64,000 nucleotides of DNA from Clostridiales bacterium (GTDB lineage: Bacteria; Bacillota; Clostridia; Oscillospirales; Acutalibacteraceae), in contig JAIKWV010000026.1 in assembly GCA_024684435.1 (NCBI GenBank), forward strand, positions 1-64,000, in the 5' to 3' direction. Below are positions 16,910 to 33,708 of the stretch, one piece after another. Numbering within the stretch: position 1 is the first letter of the stretch; each line of letters opens with the position of its first letter. The notes beneath the pieces are model-generated. The model saw nothing but the letters and a program-made list of their open reading frames with translations. It was not told where the DNA came from and made no database searches. Position numbers and translations under genes: made by a program.

Positions 16910-18454
16910 ATGGCAACGAGAACACAACACGCAAAAAGAAATATAATAACCTCCGTCATAAACAAGCTTGTCATAATGCTGGCAAACTTCGTTATGCGCA
17001 CGGTGCTGATCCGGTATCTTGGTGAGATATATCTGGGATTGGACAGCCTGTTTGTGTCCATTCTGCAGTTACTTTCCCTTACGGAGCTGGGTATAAGCGC
17101 AGCGATGGTCTACAGTATGTACAAGCCCCTTGCCCATAACGACACCCCGGCGGTGTGCGCTCTGCTGAAATTGTACCGCACAGTGTACAGGTGTATAGCG
17201 CTTGCAATGACCGTGATAGGTCTGGCGATCTCTCCGTTTTTACCCCTGATAGTAAAGGAAGATCTGCCGGATGGGATGAGTCTATATATCCTTTTCTACA
17301 TAAACCTTGCCAACACGGTAATGTCCTATATTTTCTTCGCCTACCGCTCGGCTCTGTTTACAGCGGATCAGAGATACTCCATCAACAATAACATCTATTC
17401 AATATTCAAGGTGGGCTCCACCGTCGCTCAGGTGCTTGTTATAATCTTTTTCAGGAGCTATTATGTATACTCCATCATTCTGCCCCTTACGACAATGGCA
17501 AAGAATGTGGCGGCGTATATCATATCAAACAGGATGTACCCTCAGTACAAATGCGAAGGGTCCGTGTCGAAGGAAGAGATAAACAACATCAAAAAGCGTG
17601 TTGCGGGAATGTTCCTGAACAAGCTGAGCTTTGTGTTCCGCAACTCTCTTGACAGTATCGTCCTTTCCGCGTTTTTGGGATTGACTGAACTGGCAAAATA
17701 TAACAGCTACTATTACGTTATAAACGCGATATCCGGCATAATGATCCTTGTTTCCAACAGCGTCACCGCTTCGGTGGGCAACTCGATAGTGGTTGAAACC
17801 AAAGAGAAAAACTACGATGACCTTAAAAAGCTGCAACTGTTGTATATGTGGCTGTCCTCCTGGCTGACAGTGTGCCTGGTCGCCTGTCTCCAGCCGTTTA
17901 TTAAGCTGTGGGTCGGACAGAAAATGATGTTCGGAGACGGCATAATGTTCATCTTCTGCATTTACTTCTTTACCACCCATTTCAGCAGGATGTGCTATAT
18001 GTACCGTCAGGCGGCGGGTCTGTGGTGGCAGGACAGGTTCAGACCCATTGCGGAAACAGTAACGAATTTCGTGCTGAACATAGCCCTTGTCAAAATACTG
18101 GGCAACGTCACCGGAGTAATGTTTTCCACGATCTTCTGCATAGTATTTATAGAATGTACCTGGGGCACAAGGACCCTGTTCAAGCATTATTTCACTCAGG
18201 AAAAGCAGTCAAAATATATGCTCAAGCTCCTGATGTATTCCGTAATAACCACAGCCGCCGGAGCGATATGCTACCTGATCTGCGGCAAAATAAATCTTGA
18301 GGGGATACCGGCAATTATAGTGTACGGTATAATCGCCAGCGTGGTATCCAACGTGATATTTGCCGTTGGTACCAGCTTCCTGCCGGAGTTCAGGCCGTCC
18401 ATCGCCTTCGCCCTGAAGGTCGTAGGCATCAAAAAATTTCAAATAAAAAAATGA
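16910..18454 (+). CDS. Wzx-type polysaccharide flippase
   Basis: The 514-residue polytopic membrane protein has about 12-14 hydrophobic segments and starts RNIITSVINKLVIMLANFV, typical of the MATE-like PST/Wzx family. It should flip the undecaprenyl-linked repeat unit to the outer face of the membrane for polymerisation. It lies directly after a glycosyltransferase gene, in one transcription unit, and ends at a strong terminator. The ribosome site (AGAGAT) is weak. Repeat-unit specificity cannot be read from sequence. Confidence 0.9.
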   Translation: MATRTQHAKRNIITSVINKLVIMLANFVMRTVLIRYLGEIYLGLDSLFVSILQLLSLTELGISAAMVYSMYKPLAHNDTPAVCALLKLYRTVYRCIALAMTVIGLAISPFLPLIVKEDLPDGMSLYILFYINLANTVMSYIFFAYRSALFTADQRYSINNNIYSIFKVGSTVAQVLVIIFFRSYYVYSIILPLTTMAKNVAAYIISNRMYPQYKCEGSVSKEEINNIKKRVAGMFLNKLSFVFRNSLDSIVLSAFLGLTELAKYNSYYYVINAISGIMILVSNSVTASVGNSIVVETKEKNYDDLKKLQLLYMWLSSWLTVCLVACLQPFIKLWVGQKMMFGDGIMFIFCIYFFTTHFSRMCYMYRQAAGLWWQDRFRPIAETVTNFVLNIALVKILGNVTGVMFSTIFCIVFIECTWGTRTLFKHYFTQEKQSKYMLKLLMYSVITTAAGAICYLICGKINLEGIPAIIVYGIIASVVSNVIFAVGTSFLPEFRPSIAFALKVVGIKKFQIKK

Positions 18455-18497: not shown

Positions 18498-19667
18498 TTA
18501 AAGCAGTCTGCAAATGGCGTCGTAAACACGTCGGCAGTTGTTTGCGTCGTTGAATATAAAAAACGCGTTCATCTTTTCAAGATATTCGCCGTCGGGTTGC
18601 ATATCGTTTTCAAATATATGGCGCAGGCTGTCGATAGCCTCGTCCTCGGTTTCGACCACGGCGCCGAAGCCGTCCCGCCTGTAGTCAAAGTAGCCTTCCT
18701 TATATTGTATCGCGCGGAAAGAGGCTTCATCATACTGATAAAATACCATGGGTTTGCGCATATATCCGTAATCGAAGAAAACGCTGGAATAATCGGTTAT
18801 CAATACATCGCTGTTGATAAGCAGACTCTGCACGTCGCTGTTGCTGAAATCGGCTATGCTGACCGCGGGATCGTCGGACTTGAAGCAGTCAATGAACCGC
18901 TGAACCTCGTGATGCGGGTAAAATATCAGCTCATAGTCGTATTCCTTTAAAAGCGCCGACAGCTTTTCACTGTTCAAAAATGAATTGTATTTTTTATAAT
19001 AGTCGCTTTCAAGGAAGGTGTGTCTGTTGCAGGTTCGCAGATTTGAACGCCAGGTAGGCATGAACAGGAGCTTATGGGTAAGGGCATCGGTTTTTTTCAG
19101 GTTGTCAAACCGGCAAAGACCGGTGAGTTGAAGTATGCCCTCTTTATATCCGTAAACCTTATCGATATATTCATATTCCGGCACCGCGGAGCAGACAAAC
19201 ATATCTATATTTGTATTATCGGCGTGGCAGAATAACAAATCGTCCTTGATTATACCGTGCTGAAGGAAGATTTTTTTTGCTTTGCTGGGAAAGAGCTTGC
19301 CGAATTTGTTAAAGAAGAGGATATCGGGAGAGTATCCGTCAATGTGGGTGCTCACCCTGACCTTGGCAAGGATGAAGCAAAGGTAATGCTTAAAGCTGCC
19401 GTAATTGACCAGCTTGCCCAAAGGAGCCACCTTGCTTCTGTCCGGAGAGTCCTTTGTGATGATATAGACGGCGTTTATCTCCGGGTGCTCTTTTGTAAGG
19501 AACTTGAAAAAGTGATAGCTGTTATCCCGAGCGTCCACGCCTCTTTCGGCGATGATCCAAAGGTCCTTGTAGGTTTTGCTCCTTCTGACAAAAAGACCCA
19601 CGAACTCGGCGACTGTCATTATCAAAAAAACGCGGATATAAATGAATATTCTTTTTATCTTGTACAT
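18498..19667 (-). CDS. CDP-glycerol glycerophosphotransferase family protein (TagB/TagF-like)
   Basis: The 389-residue protein matches the catalytic domain of teichoic-acid polymerases and primases: FLQHGIIKDDL (catalytic His region), LFMPTWRS, FYPHHEVQRF and VLITDYSSVFFDYGYMRKP, the CDP-glycerol-binding signature. A short hydrophobic N-terminal stretch (about 8-25) may attach it to the membrane. It transfers glycerol phosphate (or ribitol phosphate) to a glycan or teichoic-acid acceptor. Start is ATG at 19667 with GGAG six bases upstream. It is the only gene in the middle of the locus on the minus strand. Single-copy occurrence favours a decorating enzyme over full teichoic-acid synthesis, but this is inference. 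Confidence 0.88.
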   Translation of the reverse strand: MYKIKRIFIYIRVFLIMTVAEFVGLFVRRSKTYKDLWIIAERGVDARDNSYHFFKFLTKEHPEINAVYIITKDSPDRSKVAPLGKLVNYGSFKHYLCFILAKVRVSTHIDGYSPDILFFNKFGKLFPSKAKKIFLQHGIIKDDLLFCHADNTNIDMFVCSAVPEYEYIDKVYGYKEGILQLTGLCRFDNLKKTDALTHKLLFMPTWRSNLRTCNRHTFLESDYYKKYNSFLNSEKLSALLKEYDYELIFYPHHEVQRFIDCFKSDDPAVSIADFSNSDVQSLLINSDVLITDYSSVFFDYGYMRKPMVFYQYDEASFRAIQYKEGYFDYRRDGFGAVVETEDEAIDSLRHIFENDMQPDGEYLEKMNAFFIFNDANNCRRVYDAICRLL

Positions 19668-21147: not shown

Positions 21148-22527
21148 ATGAAAGAGCTGCAAAAAGAGTTTTATCCCAAGAAATCAAAGATATATATCGG
21201 TCTGTACATATTTTTCATTTTCGGCGCCGCTATGGGAGACTGGAAGGTTCTGAACATGGCTCTCGGCGCACTGCCTAAGGTCATATCGGTGGGCGCTATC
21301 GGTTTGGCGGTGGCATACATATTCTGGTCGGGAAATTTCAGAAATTTCAAAATACTGTTTAATTTTTCCCTGATGTATTCTTCCATAATAGTGGGAATAA
21401 TTCTGTGCTCCACGTTCATATGGATACTGGATCTCCAGACTATAGGGTATATCATGAAGGGTGCGTCAAAGATATCCTATCAATTTCTTAACATTCTCGT
21501 AGTTTTGTCCGCGGTATATATGTTTGAGGAAAACGCGGCAAAGTACACCTTTTTCGGCATTGCCGCCGCCAACTTCGTTATCATCCTTCTCGGAGCGGCG
21601 ACCACCGGTCCCGCCGGAGCGGTCAGGGATCTTATAGCAAACATCACATCCTTCGGCGCCAGCGACGTTATAGCCAATTCCAATTTCATAAGAGCTATCG
21701 AGATACACGATATCACCTTTGTCATGGGCGTGTATGTGCTGTATTTCCTATTCTTTTGTCCCGGCGAAAAATACAGATATATGTATGCCGCAGTCGCGCT
21801 GTTCCTGTTCTTTGCGGGTCTTAAGCGAATTGCATTTTTGAGCATGATAGCCGCCATAATGTTTGCGATCTTCTGCTCTATGCTGGGTCCGAGAGGCAAG
21901 ACAAGGGTGCTTATCCTGGCTGCGCTGTTCATTGTCGGATTCTGCTATTTTTATATCGTAATAATACAAAAAGGAATTTTTACGGAATTCTGTCAGGAAC
22001 ACGAAATAGAGCTTAACGGCAGAGAAAAAATATATGATTATATATCCAACTTCTACACAGTATCTCCATCATACAAGGGCAAGGGATATGAATTCTGCGT
22101 CTATCTTCTCAAGAGCATGAAGGGCACAAAGGATATGGTGGTCAACATCAACGCCGTGCACAACGATATACTTAAGATGTACGTTGAGCTGGGCTTTTGG
22201 GGCTTCTTCTGCTGGATAATGGGCTACTATGTCTATCAGACCTACTGGTTCAACACCCGCTGCGGAGAAAAGACCGCCGTGTGCTTTATGGCGATAAACG
22301 TATATATGCTTGTTACCTACATGACGGACAACACCATGTTCTACTACTGGTCAAGTATGGTGATACGCATGATCCCAATGTCATTTTTCTTCGCTCCCGT
22401 AAAGGATTTCCCGCTGAGAGAAACCGATCCCTTCAAAATGAACCGCGTTGAAAGGCGGATCTACAAAAAGAGAAAAAGGGACGAGATATATGAGAGGAAC
22501 CCGAGGATGAAGGTTCAGGAAGATTGA
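21148..22527 (+). CDS. Wzy-like O-antigen/capsule polymerase
   Basis: The 459-residue polytopic protein has about ten hydrophobic segments and a larger extracytoplasmic loop (about residues 280-345), ending in a basic cytosolic tail rich in Lys and Arg. Hydropathy, length and position between flippase, glycosyltransferase and chain-length genes fit a Wzy polymerase that joins flipped repeat units. Wzy proteins are poorly conserved, so the call rests on topology and context; an O-antigen ligase-like role is the alternative. Ribosome site AGGA precedes the ATG. Confidence 0.78.
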   Translation: MKELQKEFYPKKSKIYIGLYIFFIFGAAMGDWKVLNMALGALPKVISVGAIGLAVAYIFWSGNFRNFKILFNFSLMYSSIIVGIILCSTFIWILDLQTIGYIMKGASKISYQFLNILVVLSAVYMFEENAAKYTFFGIAAANFVIILLGAATTGPAGAVRDLIANITSFGASDVIANSNFIRAIEIHDITFVMGVYVLYFLFFCPGEKYRYMYAAVALFLFFAGLKRIAFLSMIAAIMFAIFCSMLGPRGKTRVLILAALFIVGFCYFYIVIIQKGIFTEFCQEHEIELNGREKIYDYISNFYTVSPSYKGKGYEFCVYLLKSMKGTKDMVVNINAVHNDILKMYVELGFWGFFCWIMGYYVYQTYWFNTRCGEKTAVCFMAINVYMLVTYMTDNTMFYYWSSMVIRMIPMSFFFAPVKDFPLRETDPFKMNRVERRIYKKRKRDEIYERNPRMKVQED

Positions 22528-25365: not shown

Positions 25366-26259
25366 ATGGGCAGATCAAAAGACCCTGACAAGAAATCACG
25401 TCCCAGGAAGAAGCACCCCATACTCAAAGCTATACTGCTGATACCGCTGGTCATCATCGTAGCTCTGGGTGGCATTGTGGGATATAACATCATATTGAAT
25501 CAAAACTTTACCGTTACGTTTTATCAGATCCGTTCGGACAAGGTCTCAAATAACGTAAGAATAGTTGAGCTTGCGGATCTTCACAGCAAAGAATACGGCA
25601 AAAACAATCAGAAGCTCATAAACAGGATAAAAGATCTCAAACCGGATATTATCGTTTATGCCGGAGATATGATGATGTACAGGGTGGACGATTATTCCGT
25701 TCTGTTCGATCTGTCGGATAAATTGAGCGAGATAGCGCCGATCTATGCCTGCTTCGGAAACCATGAGTTGGATCAGTACCTTTTCAGGGACAAAAACTTC
25801 AAGCAGGATTTCATCTCTCACAACGTAAATCTTCTGGCCAATGAGGCTGTGGAGGTAGAGGTGAAAGATTCTGTAGTTCAGATCATAGGCCTTACGGACG
25901 ATTACGGTCATTTCGACTCGCCTACAAACAATTCCAAAAAATTCATGGACTCGCTTGAACCCACGGACAACTGCCGTCTTTGTCTTACCCATTATCCGGA
26001 GCTGTTCTTTGACAAGCTGCTGAACAGGGGAATAGACGTTGCGTTTACGGGTCACATTCACGGCGGACTGATCCGCATCCCGAGGATCGGCGGACTTTAC
26101 AGCCCCACCGAGGGTTTCTTCCCCACACTTACGGCGGGTGTTTATGAACCCGGTGACGGATCCCGCGTCGTTATAAGCAGAGGCTTGGGCGACTCAAGCA
26201 AGATCCCCAGGATCAACAATCAGCCCGAGCTGGTAGTCGTTGATATATGCTGGTATTGA
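25366..26259 (+). CDS. Membrane-anchored calcineurin-like metallophosphoesterase
   Basis: The 297-residue protein has a basic N terminus, a membrane segment (about 18-40), then a metallophosphoesterase domain of the YkuE/YaeI type: ELADLHSKEYG (the usual DxH is present as D-L-H), VYAGDMM, CFGNHELDQ, LTHYPELF and FTGHIHGGLIRIPRIGG. All five metal motifs look intact. It faces outward if the anchor is inside-to-out. Its place within the exopolysaccharide operon suggests action on a lipid-linked phosphate or glycan phosphate, but that is inference. GTGAGG precedes the ATG. Confidence 0.88.
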   Translation: MGRSKDPDKKSRPRKKHPILKAILLIPLVIIVALGGIVGYNIILNQNFTVTFYQIRSDKVSNNVRIVELADLHSKEYGKNNQKLINRIKDLKPDIIVYAGDMMMYRVDDYSVLFDLSDKLSEIAPIYACFGNHELDQYLFRDKNFKQDFISHNVNLLANEAVEVEVKDSVVQIIGLTDDYGHFDSPTNNSKKFMDSLEPTDNCRLCLTHYPELFFDKLLNRGIDVAFTGHIHGGLIRIPRIGGLYSPTEGFFPTLTAGVYEPGDGSRVVISRGLGDSSKIPRINNQPELVVVDICWY

Positions 26260-26317: not shown

Positions 26318-27772
26318 TTGGAAACAACATACCACGAAAAGGTTTTTTACTCCCAAAAGAAAAAGCACTTTAAACTCTTGCGCAAATTGATGAGAAAAAT
26401 ATTTTCTCCATTGATCCGTGCGCTTAACAGCGTGGATGAAGATTTTTCGGATCGTTCCCCAATCAGAAAAACATTTTTATTTGCTCTCAGGTGGAAAACT
26501 CCGATATTCGTACTGTTTGTGGTAGTAATGGTGTTGGCGGCGGGATATTTCATTCATAGCAGTGCCGGTGTGGCGACGACGGAAATGAGCCTTAACTACG
26601 AGGAGAGCGCCAACGGACTTAATCCAAATTCTACCAGATTCAACATCTATGACTTTGCCAGCCAGGAAGTGGTGGAGGGGATGCTGAACTATTGCGGCAT
26701 CGACCCCGAAAGCGTAGATATGAATTCAATAATTAATTCAATATCAATAAAGCCAACCAACTCAAAAGCATTTTCCGAGGACAACTATTTTATCTCCACA
26801 TCCTACAGAATAACTCTGAAAAAGCCGCCGGAGATAAGTGATGTAAGCGCAGACGATCTTTTAAATCTTCTGTGCAAGGCATACAAAGACAACCTTTACT
26901 CAAAATATACGGAAAACCGCTCTATCCTGGAATTTGATATAGACAAATTCAATGACGTGGAATTCATGGAAATAGCCGACCTGTTCGACTTGAAGGCTCA
27001 GCAGATCGAAAAGTACCTTAACACAAGGGCAAAGCAGAACAAAACCTTTACCGAGCAGGAGTCAGACGAGACATTCAAATCCCTTGCCGAGAAGGTTGAA
27101 AATCTGCGGATTTACGACATTGATAAATACCGCACATTTGTTATTCAGACCGGACCTTCTTTAAATAAGGAACGCTATACAAGAGCCCTGTCTTATGTGA
27201 ACCTGATAAAGGGCATGAGCTATGATAAGGATATGGCTGCATACGATGTGCGAAACGACGGGATAAAGATGTACAGGGAAAACATGATAAATATAGTAAT
27301 GATCCCGTCAGTTGATGAAAGCAAGAATACATACTATATGTCCAAAACCAAAACAGGTATGGACTACATGGCGAGTCAGGCGGATGATTATCTTCTCACA
27401 GCGCAGGAGACCGCAAAGGAGATATCCACAAACGAGGATATAATCGCCAAGATGCGCGCCGGTACAAACAACGCCGCGGATATCAAAAAGGCAAACGAAA
27501 TGATAAGCGAGATACGCAAAAAGTTTTCCGAACTTTCCAAACAGATAGAAACGGTGGACAAGGCGTATGTCAAATACAAGACAAAGGATTATCTGACCTT
27601 TAAGAAATTAAATCAGGCGCTTAAACAGATCATGAATTTTGATGCTCTGATCGCGCTTGCGGCGGTAATGCTGTTTGGAATATTTGCGGTCATCTGGTTA
27701 AGATTCCGATATTTCGGTGGAGGAGACAAGAGTGAAGGAGTTTCAACTTTTACGTTACCTTTACAAAGGTAA
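26318..27772 (+). CDS. Wzz-like chain-length determinant/co-polymerase protein
   Basis: The 484-residue protein has a cytosolic N terminus (about 1-58), a membrane segment (about 60-80), a long extracytoplasmic, partly coiled-coil region (about 85-445) and a second membrane segment (about 448-468), the Wzz/BexC-like topology. The start of the outer region (NYEESANGLNPNSTRFNIYD) resembles the matching part of the next gene product, so the two are paralogues. There is no kinase domain. Start is TTG at 26318 with AAAGGAGG nine bases before it. It overlaps the next gene by 41 bases. It should set polymer length or gate export together with its partner. Confidence 0.82.
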   Translation: METTYHEKVFYSQKKKHFKLLRKLMRKIFSPLIRALNSVDEDFSDRSPIRKTFLFALRWKTPIFVLFVVVMVLAAGYFIHSSAGVATTEMSLNYEESANGLNPNSTRFNIYDFASQEVVEGMLNYCGIDPESVDMNSIINSISIKPTNSKAFSEDNYFISTSYRITLKKPPEISDVSADDLLNLLCKAYKDNLYSKYTENRSILEFDIDKFNDVEFMEIADLFDLKAQQIEKYLNTRAKQNKTFTEQESDETFKSLAEKVENLRIYDIDKYRTFVIQTGPSLNKERYTRALSYVNLIKGMSYDKDMAAYDVRNDGIKMYRENMINIVMIPSVDESKNTYYMSKTKTGMDYMASQADDYLLTAQETAKEISTNEDIIAKMRAGTNNAADIKKANEMISEIRKKFSELSKQIETVDKAYVKYKTKDYLTFKKLNQALKQIMNFDALIALAAVMLFGIFAVIWLRFRYFGGGDKSEGVSTFTLPLQR

Positions 27773-29543
27773 ATTCATAATTTTCATAGTTGCGCTTGTC
27801 GGTGCTATCTGGGTTTACTCCTTTGCAAACTCGCAGCAGGTATACACGGCGACGACAGTCATCCGTTATGCCAACGGAGCCATAAGCGAAGGGCTTACGC
27901 CCAACGGCTCAAAGCTGGACGTTTCGGAGATATACTCTTCAACCGTCATCAAGGGCGCCATCGAAGATCTGGGACTGAACTGTTCCATCGACGAGGTGCG
28001 TTCCAAGATGAAGGTCCGTGCAATTATACCCGATGAGGAGGAGCAGAGGAAGGAGACCGCGATAAGCAAGGGTGAGGAATATAATTATTTCCCCACCGAC
28101 TATGTCATAACATTTGAGGCGAATTCTGAAAAATCCATGAATTACGTGGCAAATATGCTTGACGCTGTTATCAAAAACTACTATATGTTCTACAGCGAAA
28201 AGTATGTGGATCAGATGATCCTTCCCAACAATGCCGCGAATATCAGCTCAAACGATTACGACTATATCGAAAGCGCGGAGATAATCCAGGAGTCGGTCAA
28301 GGGCATAGACGACTATCTGCTTCAAAAAAGAGCAAGCTATCCCGACTTCAGGGCGTCAGCCACAGGCTATACTTTTACCGACCTTGAAAACATATACAGC
28401 TACATCATAAAGAACAAGGTCCCTCATCTGTACGCAAGCATCTTCCAGGGAAAGTATACCAAGGATAACGATCTGCTTCTGAAAAAACAGCAGAACCGTA
28501 TAGAACAACTTGACATCAGTATAAACAACAACACGCAAAAGGCGGACAAACTCAAGTACTTGCTTGACAATTACAGTGAAAAGGGCGTAAACACGACCAA
28601 CAGCCTTGACGATGATGCTGATGCGGCAAACAGCGGGACAGGTTCCTCGGTCATAGGAAGTAACGACGCGGGCTCAGCTATAATAATGGATGTAAACGGC
28701 TACGACAGGGGCTTGAACGTCATTACGACTTACGATGATCTGATCCAGGAATATGTGAGCATCAACCAGTCGATCAAAAACGATGAGATAGATAAAGAAC
28801 ATGCTGAGTACATAAAATCTGTTTTTGTGGGCAATACGCAGAATCAGGTCCTCAGCGACGGTGTGGAAAAGTACATAGAAGAACTGGTGGACATCCTGAA
28901 CACGGAGTACAGTCTGGTAAAGTCCACAGCGAGAGAGCTCAACGAATATATCGGCGCCAGCTACCTTAACATACTCAACTCAGTCGTTGCGGCGCAGAAA
29001 GTAAATATCAAGCTGTACCTTGCATTGGCTGTCGTGTTCTTCCTGTTCTTCGGCTGCGTCGGCGCGGTGGTTATCGGAAGGCTCAAGGATTTCATACAGT
29101 ACATCCTTTACACAGACAAAAACACAAAGCTTCCCAACCGTCAGATGTGCGATATATATATCAACTCTCTTGCCACGAAGGATGTTGGTGAACAGTACAC
29201 CTGTCTTATCATCAAGATGACCAATCTGTTCGATCTTAACGCGACCCTGGGACGCGCCGCCGCCGATTCGGTTTTGGCTGATTTCGGAGGCATGATAAAA
29301 TCTCTTTCAAGGAATTACGGCTTTGTGGGATATAACAACGGCGGTCAGTTCCTGGGACTGTTCGATAAGTGTACCGCGCAGAAAGTGGAAATGTTTATCG
29401 AAATGCTCCAGAACAACGTGGATGATTACAACGAAAAGCAGATCGAGCTTAACATCAAGTTCACCGCGGCTTATGTCAACTCTACGGATGACGGCATTTA
29501 TGATATCAGAGATATTATCCACCGTACTTACGGGAAGTTATAA
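27732..29543 (+). CDS. Wzz-like chain-length protein fused to a degenerate GGDEF domain
   Basis: The 603-residue protein has a membrane segment near residues 16-34, an extracytoplasmic helical region (about 38-425) beginning like a Wzz domain (ANGAISEGLTPNGSKLDVSE), a second membrane segment (about 428-450) and a cytosolic C-terminal domain (about 458-603) that reads as GGDEF: TDKNTKLPNRQMCDIYIN, a central CLIIKMTNLFDLNATLG, then NNGGQFLGLF at residues 535-544. GGQF replaces GG(D/E)EF, and the inhibitory RxxD site is absent, so cyclase activity is unlikely. GGAGGAG (27719-27725) is six bases before the GTG at 27732, which fixes the start; an in-frame GTG at 27717 is less likely. It may sense a nucleotide and control polymer length. 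Confidence 0.82.
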   Translation: MKEFQLLRYLYKGKFIIFIVALVGAIWVYSFANSQQVYTATTVIRYANGAISEGLTPNGSKLDVSEIYSSTVIKGAIEDLGLNCSIDEVRSKMKVRAIIPDEEEQRKETAISKGEEYNYFPTDYVITFEANSEKSMNYVANMLDAVIKNYYMFYSEKYVDQMILPNNAANISSNDYDYIESAEIIQESVKGIDDYLLQKRASYPDFRASATGYTFTDLENIYSYIIKNKVPHLYASIFQGKYTKDNDLLLKKQQNRIEQLDISINNNTQKADKLKYLLDNYSEKGVNTTNSLDDDADAANSGTGSSVIGSNDAGSAIIMDVNGYDRGLNVITTYDDLIQEYVSINQSIKNDEIDKEHAEYIKSVFVGNTQNQVLSDGVEKYIEELVDILNTEYSLVKSTARELNEYIGASYLNILNSVVAAQKVNIKLYLALAVVFFLFFGCVGAVVIGRLKDFIQYILYTDKNTKLPNRQMCDIYINSLATKDVGEQYTCLIIKMTNLFDLNATLGRAAADSVLADFGGMIKSLSRNYGFVGYNNGGQFLGLFDKCTAQKVEMFIEMLQNNVDDYNEKQIELNIKFTAAYVNSTDDGIYDIRDIIHRTYGKL

Positions 29544-31343: not shown

Positions 31344-32276
31344 TTGAAAGGCATCATTTTAGCAGGCGGTTCCGGCACAAGGCTCTATCCTCTTACGTTG
31401 GTCACCAGTAAACAACTTTTACCGGTATACGATAAACCCATGATATATTACCCTCTTTCCACACTTATGCTGGCGGGAATACGGGAAATACTTATTATAT
31501 CCACATCGGAAGACACCCCAAAATTTCAGGCGCTGATGGGCAACGGCAGTCAGTTCGGGCTCAAGCTTTCCTATGCCATACAGGAAAGACCGGAGGGTCT
31601 GGCGCAGGCGTTCATCATCGGCGAAAAATTCATCGGTGACGACAGCGTGGCAATGGTCCTGGGTGACAATATTTTTTACGGAAACGGTCTGGGACATCTG
31701 CTCAGACAGGCGGCGAAGAACGTTAACAAGGCGACCATTTTCGGCTACTATGTGGATCATCCCGAAAGCTTCGGCGTCATTGAGTTTGATAAGCACAATG
31801 TTCCTGTTTCCATAGAAGAAAAGCCAAAAAAGCCAAAGTCCAATTACGCGGTCACCGGTCTTTATTTCTACGACAACAGGGTAGTGGGGTACGCGAAATC
31901 TCTCAAGCCCTCCAAACGCGGCGAGCTGGAGATAACCGACATTAACCGTATTTACCTTAAGAACAACGAGCTGGATATCCGATTTTTGGGCAGGGGCTAC
32001 GCCTGGCTGGATACCGGTACGGTGGATAACCTTATGGACGCGGCGAATTTCGTCCGCACCGTGGAGCGCCTTCAGGGCATAAAGATCTCCGCCCCGGAGG
32101 AAATAGCCTACAATATGCGCTGGATAACAAAGAAGAATTTGATAAAATCCGCGGAAAAATACGGCAATTCGGATTACGGCAAGCATCTGCTCCGGGTCAG
32201 TGAGGGCAAGATCCTCTACGGCATAAATCCCGGAGATCAGAGACCCCGCTGGGGTATCGAGGACGAGGATGTATAA
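31344..32276 (+). CDS. rfbA: Glucose-1-phosphate thymidylyltransferase
   Basis: The 310-residue protein begins [17 protein letters not shown], the nucleotidyltransferase signature loop, and continues with [49 protein letters not shown] and GYAWLDTGT, all typical of RmlA. It makes dTDP-glucose from dTTP and glucose 1-phosphate, the first step to dTDP-L-rhamnose. Start is TTG at 31344. It heads an rfbA-rfbC-rfbD unit with its own promoter. The C-terminal extension (about 20 residues past the usual 290) is slightly longer than average. Confidence 0.95.
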
Positions 32277-32300
32277 CAGATCACAAGGAGATGTTCTCTG

Positions 32301-32858
32301 TTGAAGGCAATAGAAACCGAGCTTGAGGGTGTTCTTATCATTGAGCCGCAGGTGTTTGGAGATAATCGTGGCTGGTTCTACGAATCCTATTCCCGCAAAA
32401 AGCTGGAGGCTTTGGGGATCAATGCTGACTTTGTTCAGGACAACCGTTCATTTTCAGCTCAGCCGGGCACTGTAAGAGGTCTTCACTGTCAGACAGACCC
32501 CATGGCGCAGGCGAAGCTTGTCACCTGCACCCGGGGCGCCATAAAAGATATTGCCGTCGATATAAGGCAGGGCTCTCCCACATATATGAAATGGATCGGA
32601 GTGGAGCTCAACGATCAGAATAAACTTATGCTGTTCATACCCAAGGGGTTTCTCCACGGCTTTGTGACCCTGACTCCGGACGTAGAGCTTTTCTACAAGG
32701 TGGATGAATACTATTCGCCGGAGAACGACAGAAGCATAAGGTTCAACGATCCGGCAATAGGCGTTGACTGGGGCGTTGAAGACCCGGTGTTGTCCGTTAA
32801 GGATATGAATTCACCGCTGTTGGCAGACAGCAACGTGAAATTTACGTATCAGAGGTAA
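32301..32858 (+). CDS. rfbC: dTDP-4-dehydrorhamnose 3,5-epimerase
   Basis: The 185-residue cupin-fold enzyme shows GVLIIEPQVFGDNRGWFYES, FVQDNRSFS, GTVRGLHCQ (catalytic His), AVDIRQGSPTY and IPKGFLHGFVTLTPD. It epimerises the 3 and 5 positions of dTDP-4-keto-6-deoxyglucose. Start is TTG at 32301, about 11 bases after AAGGAG, a slightly long spacing. Four bases separate its stop from the start of rfbD. Length is normal for the family. Confidence 0.95.
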   Translation: MKAIETELEGVLIIEPQVFGDNRGWFYESYSRKKLEALGINADFVQDNRSFSAQPGTVRGLHCQTDPMAQAKLVTCTRGAIKDIAVDIRQGSPTYMKWIGVELNDQNKLMLFIPKGFLHGFVTLTPDVELFYKVDEYYSPENDRSIRFNDPAIGVDWGVEDPVLSVKDMNSPLLADSNVKFTYQR

Positions 32859-32862
32859 CTGT

Positions 32863-33708
32863 ATGCAGATACTTGTGACCGGTGCCAACGGTCAGCTTGG
32901 CTCCGACGTGATAAGAGAACTTGAGCTCCGTCATATTCCCTGCAAAGGCGTGGATATGGCGGACTTTGACATATGTAATTTTGAACAGGCGAAAGAATAT
33001 ATTTCCGGGTACGCCCCGGAGGCCGTTATTCACTGCGCCGCTTACACCGCTGTGGACAAGGCGGAGACAGAACAGGAGCTGTGCATGAAGGTCAATGCTG
33101 AGGGTACCGAAAACATTGCGAAGGTCTGCCGGGAGCTTGACTGCAAGCTTATGTATATCAGTACAGACTACGTTTTCGGCAACAGCGGTACCCGTGTCCT
33201 TCAGACGGACGCCCCGAAAATCCCCCTGAACATCTACGGTGAATCAAAGCTCGCGGGGGAGAACGCGGTAATTGAAAATGTGAAAAAATATTTCATAGTC
33301 CGCACGTCCTGGGTCTTCGGTCTGCACGGCAATAACTTTGTCAAAACCATGCACAGGCTTGCCACCGACGGCAATCATCCGGAAATAAACGTGGTCTGTG
33401 ATCAGGTGGGTTCCCCCACATACACCGGCGACCTTGCAAAGCTTATCTGCGATATGATCGTAACGGAAAAATACGGTGTGTACCACGCCACCAACGAGGG
33501 CTACTGTTCATGGGCTGATTTTGCCCGTGAGATCATGTACCTTGCCGGGTTATCCGTCAAAATAAACGACATAACCACCGAGGAGTACAACGCCCCGGCG
33601 GCGCGCCCGAAGAATTCGCGGCTCTCCAAAGTGTCTTTGGACGACAACGGCTTTGAACGTCTGCCCTCATGGCAGAATGCTCTGCAAAGATATTTGCAGT
33701 CACTGTGA
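32863..33708 (+). CDS. rfbD: dTDP-4-dehydrorhamnose reductase
   Basis: The 281-residue short-chain-dehydrogenase-fold enzyme shows the NADPH loop ILVTGANGQLGSDVI, VIHCAAYTAVDKAE, YISTDYVFGNSG and the catalytic YGESKLAGE (Tyr-x3-Lys). It makes dTDP-L-rhamnose in the last step. AGAGGT lies six bases before the ATG. The rfbB dehydratase that should act between RfbA and RfbC is absent from this window and must be encoded elsewhere if the pathway works. The gene converges on the calcium-type ATPase without a clear terminator. Confidence 0.95.
   Translation: MQILVTGANGQLGSDVIRELELRHIPCKGVDMADFDICNFEQAKEYISGYAPEAVIHCAAYTAVDKAETEQELCMKVNAEGTENIAKVCRELDCKLMYISTDYVFGNSGTRVLQTDAPKIPLNIYGESKLAGENAVIENVKKYFIVRTSWVFGLHGNNFVKTMHRLATDGNHPEINVVCDQVGSPTYTGDLAKLICDMIVTEKYGVYHATNEGYCSWADFAREIMYLAGLSVKINDITTEEYNAPAARPKNSRLSKVSLDDNGFERLPSWQNALQRYLQSL

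Follow-up and report, generated by a model that had tools for sequence, protein, structure and literature searches.

The synthase-dependent polymers cellulose, PNAG, and Pel are controlled by c-di-GMP through separate receptors or PilZ domains, and the co-polymerases of Wzx/Wzy systems are controlled by tyrosine phosphorylation. Dead GGDEF and EAL folds can serve as c-di-GMP receptors, as in LapD and FimX, proteins that combine the two domains and act on adhesin or pili, whereas the protein described here, WzzG, is a polysaccharide co-polymerase-like protein with a degenerate GGDEF domain. It is encoded in a 64,000-nucleotide stretch of a Clostridiales genome (GCA_024684435.1, contig JAIKWV010000026.1), referred to below as the window.

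Three described systems come closest to this arrangement. In PelD, known from Pseudomonas and from Bacillus cereus pelDEADAFG, a dead GGDEF domain controls exopolysaccharide (PMC7112168). The likeness lies in a membrane protein that bears a degenerate GGDEF domain and in post-translational exopolysaccharide control, as proposed here for WzzG, with Gram-positive bacteria included. PelD, however, belongs to a synthase-dependent system, in which it acts as a separate GAF-GGDEF receptor that binds c-di-GMP at an intact RxxD motif, whereas in WzzG a Wzx/Wzy co-polymerase-like part carries the domain as a fusion and the motif is gone. YdaK of Bacillus subtilis is another dead-GGDEF exopolysaccharide regulator, which docks the cyclase DgcK (PMC7064775). 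Its degenerate GGDEF domain likewise sits on a membrane protein, and YdaK is needed for an exopolysaccharide operon; however, it is a separate subunit that requires an intact I-site for docking, unlike the fused, RxxD-free domain of WzzG. Finally, Wzc and CpsC/CpsD, representing PCP-2a and PCP-2b, use a tyrosine kinase (reviewed in PMC12220298). These proteins share with WzzG two transmembrane segments, a large outer domain, an association with Wzy, and a cytosolic side that serves, or in WzzG would serve, as the control point, but their control is exerted by a BY-kinase, fused or separate, whereas in the WzzG loci no such kinase was found, a GGDEF or EAL module is present instead, and the match to the Pfam Wzz profile is sub-threshold.

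No description of a co-polymerase fused to a GGDEF or EAL domain was found in open-access full texts. Co-polymerases that bear such domains instead of being coupled to a kinase would join both modes of control and would allow a direct test of the way in which chain length is set by a signal from the cytosol. The fusion occurs widely among Clostridia of the rumen and gut, in which exopolysaccharide control is little known.

Gene Cluster Encoding WzzG

The following genes surround WzzG in the window:

16910-18454, forward strand: probable Wzx flippase
21148-22527, forward strand: Wzy-type polymerase (PF04932, 40.7 bits)
25366-26259, forward strand: membrane-anchored, YaeI-like metallophosphoesterase (PF00149)
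26318-27772, forward strand: paralogous co-polymerase Wzz1 (PCP1), 484 amino acids, without a cytosolic domain (hhalign)
27732-29543, forward strand: PCP2-GGDEF fusion WzzG, 603 amino acids
29591-31021, forward strand: polyprenyl glycosylphosphotransferase, the initiating enzyme (PF02397 and TIGR03025, both over cut-off)
31344-33708, forward strand: dTDP-rhamnose genes rmlA (PF00483), rmlC, and rmlD (the latter two from sequence reading)

A preliminary description of this DNA had placed the open reading frame of WzzG at 27732-29543, and it is present there, starting with GTG at 27732 behind GGAGGAG, a good ribosome-binding site, and overlapping the upstream gene by 41 nt. The exopolysaccharide operon claimed in that description is borne out by the genes of the locus, which are of the Wzx/Wzy type. 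The probable flippase is inferred from its position and its 514-residue hydrophobic sequence, and NCBIfam profiles gave no match on it. In many relatives the Wzy gene lies directly downstream of WzzG, and a Wzy profile match is found in 56 of 57 GGDEF loci. In the part of the window from 10 to 40 kb, no c-di-GMP riboswitch was found over the operon. A TarF-like glycerophosphotransferase gene lies on the opposite strand within the cluster (18498-19667, reverse), with profile scores far below the family cut-offs.

Two neighboring genes are conserved together with the fusion. Wzz1 aligns with the WzzG family over 401 columns at 99.8% hhalign probability, its AlphaFold2 model has a pLDDT of 81, and its fold matches to Wzc and FepE are weak. 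The PCP1 gene adjoins in all of the gene neighborhoods checked (57/57 GGDEF loci and 10/10 EAL loci); in locus L183, a PCP1 homologue occurs in an unusually long ORF of 801 amino acids beside a domain-less PCP2. Of the GGDEF loci, 62/64 have the metallophosphoesterase gene next to the co-polymerase pair, as do 11/12 EAL loci. Its product scores 97.7 bits against the YaeI model, below the cut-off of 188, and a search for a close solved structure found none; lipid-carrier recycling or polymer release is perhaps its role, as one guess.

The Outer Part of WzzG

The order of elements in WzzG is TM1, an outer domain of about 390 amino acids, TM2, and a C-terminal GGDEF-fold domain, and the N-terminal portion is delimited as follows:

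27732-29078, forward strand: Wzz/PCP-like part with TM1 (residues 14-34), outer domain, and TM2 (residues 426-449), from the AlphaFold2 model

The model was computed with AlphaFold2 from a 57-sequence family alignment and has a mean pLDDT of 84, rising to about 90 across the GGDEF part, with a low-confidence insert at residues 286-331. Besides the helices at 14-34 and 426-449, it contains long helices at 246-294 and 376-411, and thus has the topology of PCPs, in which a large outer domain with long helices stands between TM1 and TM2. The genomic context is also that of a PCP, with Wzy, the initiating transferase, and glycosyltransferases co-encoded. The Wzz likeness noted in the preliminary description stays below threshold at the profile level, however: PF02706 matches residues 5-50 only, with 18.7 bits against a cut-off of 25.5. 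Foldseek returns Wzc (7nhr) as a weak match (E 1.4e-5, probability 1.0, TM only about 0.17), and the Pro-rich motif before TM2 is absent, there being no Pro in residues 405-430. Because of the sub-threshold Pfam match and the missing Pro-rich motif, WzzG is called co-polymerase-like, an assignment based on topology, context, and the weak Wzc fold match. Its probable role is to determine how long a secreted sugar chain becomes.

The Degenerate GGDEF Domain

The C-terminal domain and its landmark residues are located as follows:

29109-29540, forward strand: degenerate GGDEF domain, residues 460-603 (PF00990, Foldseek, profile)
29238-29240, forward strand: Asn503, equivalent of the guanine-contact Asn, kept in 67/71 members
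29265-29267, forward strand: Asp512, equivalent of the guanine-contact Asp, kept in 69/71 members
29331-29351, forward strand: YNNGGQF, residues 534-540, in place of RxGGDEF (family consensus YNGxGxF)

The GGDEF assignment comes from profile and structure matches. PF00990 covers residues 460-592 with 43.7 bits (cut-off 23.8), and in a search of the whole genome the WzzG locus scores 47 bits. Foldseek aligns the domain with the GGDEF structures of GcbC, FimX, and SadC (TMt 0.70-0.73), the profile comparison with DgcR gives E 1e-13, and LapD and FimX appear among the sequence or fold matches. The two-TM architecture with an outer domain and a cytosolic GGDEF-like domain, as first described, is thereby upheld by PF00990, AlphaFold2, and Foldseek.

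A survey of the fusion elsewhere yielded 71 non-redundant Clostridia members that keep the GGDEF domain. The loss of the signature, originally reported as GGQF, extends to the whole family, in which GG[DE]EF occurs in 0/71 members; the NGGQF of WzzG is more degenerate than that label implies, because it has G at the D/E position and Q for the E. Across the 71 members, the Glu that ends the motif is not conserved. The reported absence of RxxD is equally general: WzzG has RNYG, and the Asp of RxxD is found in 0/71. The metal Asp is kept in 29/71 members and is K in WzzG, and the phosphate-contact Lys (Lys332-equivalent) is kept in 9/71. Asn503 and Asp512, the equivalents of PleD N335 and D344 with the guanine-contact roles established there, are nevertheless among the kept residues, and R450, F518, and R593 are further, newly conserved residues. 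Wherever dS was computable, dN/dS of the domain is 0.05-0.22, and the domain is under purifying selection; within WzzG's own group, its rate of evolution exceeds that of the outer part. Motif loss, low dN/dS, and the kept Asn and Asp therefore indicate a domain retained as a non-catalytic module. Since neither GG[DE]EF nor RxxD is present, it is neither an active cyclase nor an I-site receptor of the PelD/YdaK type, and both candidates were rejected on these residues.

An EAL Domain in the Sister Clade

In a sister clade of WzzG, from the same order and class, an EAL domain occupies the same C-terminal place (PF00563, 93-203 bits), and domain-less forms of the same co-polymerase occur in that order and class as well. 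The PCP-EAL fusions are:

L168, 7186-9480, forward strand
L169, 6795-8993, reverse strand
L131, 3679-5994, reverse strand
L132, 8032-10245, forward strand
L170-L177, further loci

The degree of degeneration varies: the EAL domain of L168 is near-canonical, whereas those of L132 and L170-L177 are strongly degenerate. In the most basal member, L166, which is the gene in L168, the metal-site residues E, N, E, D, D, K, and E are intact, but Ser replaces the Glu ending the ITE-type motif; in L167 and L131, DD is changed to DN.

In a tree built from the co-polymerase part alone, the GGDEF forms make up one clade (bootstrap 100, SH-aLRT 100) and the EAL forms a separate one (bootstrap 100, SH-aLRT 98), with the domain-less forms grouping on the GGDEF side and so lying between the two. 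A joint GGDEF and EAL clade apart from the domain-less forms was rejected by the AU test (p = 0.0004). The simplest reading is that c-di-GMP domains were fused onto one scaffold on two separate occasions. A less simple and less likely alternative is a tandem GGDEF-EAL fusion in the ancestor that was broken up by several losses; it needs more steps, and no tandem form of the co-polymerase was seen. The pair of fusions is the best evidence for a c-di-GMP connection of the module, which it suggests, and it strengthens the initial idea of a signal module built into the co-polymerase. The earlier interpretation stands in its architecture, motif loss, and Wzx/Wzy operon, but it overlooked the EAL sister clade, the paralogous co-polymerase, the metallophosphoesterase, and the fact that no BY-kinase is found in the locus.

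Kinases and c-di-GMP Proteins

No BY-kinase was found in the scanned loci, a scan with a weak control because its positive matches were the query proteins themselves. Independently of the scan, TIGR01007 has no match on the window's contig. On the result of the scan a kinase-linked PCP was rejected, and the TIGR01007 search agrees for that contig. Elsewhere in the genome there are two conventional fusions of Wzz and BY-kinase (L137, 8176-10077, forward strand; L138, 8358-9788, forward strand; contig C3). The genome also encodes two EAL domains and, besides that of WzzG, six to seven GGDEF domains whose motif is intact or nearly so, whereas no PilZ domain was found in it.

Proposed Function and Alternatives

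The C-terminal domain of WzzG may be a non-catalytic, c-di-GMP-linked regulatory module in a Wzx/Wzy co-polymerase, a reading to which an even chance is given. WzzG would be one of two paired, kinase-free co-polymerases in a Wzx/Wzy exopolysaccharide system, and its dead GGDEF domain would sense the c-di-GMP state from the cytosol. It could do so with the former active-site pocket, which would bind c-di-GMP or another guanine nucleotide, or else as a docking site for a cyclase or phosphodiesterase. TM2 would relay the signal to the outer domain, where the oligomer or the way it contacts Wzy would change, leading to altered chain length or polymer amount. The regulatory module would sit where kinase coupling usually does. 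The dead GGDEF domain here and the EAL domain in the sister clade suggest that c-di-GMP signaling is wired directly into the polymer-export machinery. Architecture, degeneration, constraint, co-conserved genes, and the two separate fusions are observed, and from them we infer signaling by the domain, its ligand, and the direction of its effect. Counted for this reading are the GGDEF and EAL domains at the same co-polymerase place, each in one clade, the metal-site residues kept in the most basal EAL member, the retention of Asn503 and Asp512 while catalytic residues were lost, the low dN/dS, a genome with other GGDEF domains and EAL domains but no PilZ, the lack of any BY-kinase match in the scanned loci although the genome has two elsewhere, and the PelD and YdaK precedents. 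Counted against it are the missing RxxD, the mostly lost Lys, a metal Asp in a minority of members (29/71), and the faster evolution relative to the outer part in WzzG's own group; moreover, Asn503 and Asp512 could be retained for folding, and the domain-less relatives evidently work without a C-terminal domain.

The main rival to the c-di-GMP-linked reading is a structural role only, possible though doubtful, in which the domain would involve no nucleotide and would act by dimerization or docking, to keep the co-polymerase ring in order or to hold a partner enzyme, namely the initiating transferase or a glycosyltransferase. GGDEF domains dimerize, no catalytic or inhibitory site is left, and YNGxGxF together with the new conserved R450, F518, and R593 resembles a new surface; however, the same position also received an unrelated EAL domain, which in one member is near-canonical, and the guanine-contact residues are better kept than the catalytic ones. 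Retention of the guanine-contact Asn and Asp with loss of metal and phosphate residues would also suit a pocket reading another guanine nucleotide, whether GTP/GDP or (p)ppGpp to signal growth or a precursor of the GDP-sugar kind, and PleD structures with (p)ppGpp exist (9g85, 9g86). This is unlikely, since the EAL fusion in the sister clade is left unexplained and the cluster of the window encodes dTDP-rhamnose genes rather than GDP-sugar genes. Diguanylate cyclase activity of the domain despite its unusual signature is highly improbable: the fold is kept and some members have the metal Asp, but GG[DE]EF is found in none of the 71, the last motif Glu is not kept, and the Lys332-equivalent is lost in 62.

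Returning to the c-di-GMP-linked reading, a bolder version may be put forward tentatively, in which a family of kinase-free paired co-polymerases specific to Clostridia acquired c-di-GMP domains on two separate occasions, once GGDEF and once EAL, as built-in control of Wzx/Wzy polymer synthesis; some EAL forms would perhaps cleave c-di-GMP on the spot, and the dead GGDEF domain would use the former substrate pocket, not an I-site, to read a guanine nucleotide.

Distribution of the Family

A scan of 84,980 genomes recovered relatives of WzzG in 59 loci, mostly in rumen and hindgut Clostridia MAGs. These relatives in other genomes, together with dN/dS, rule out a chance or chimeric ORF. Two of the MAGs are labeled Spirochaetales and Abditibacteriota and may be mis-binned or represent transfers. 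Of the genome samples searched at E 1e-15, that of the order had matches in 31/396 genomes and that of the class in 104/392, many of the lower-scoring ones being ordinary GGDEF proteins. At E 1e-25, matches occurred in 3/398 genomes of the phylum sample, among them the genome of WzzG itself and a second one from the same family, and the WzzG family is therefore essentially confined to Clostridia. One PCP-GGDEF protein (L178, 6678-9320, forward strand) carries an extra low-complexity cytosolic tail of about 280 residues.
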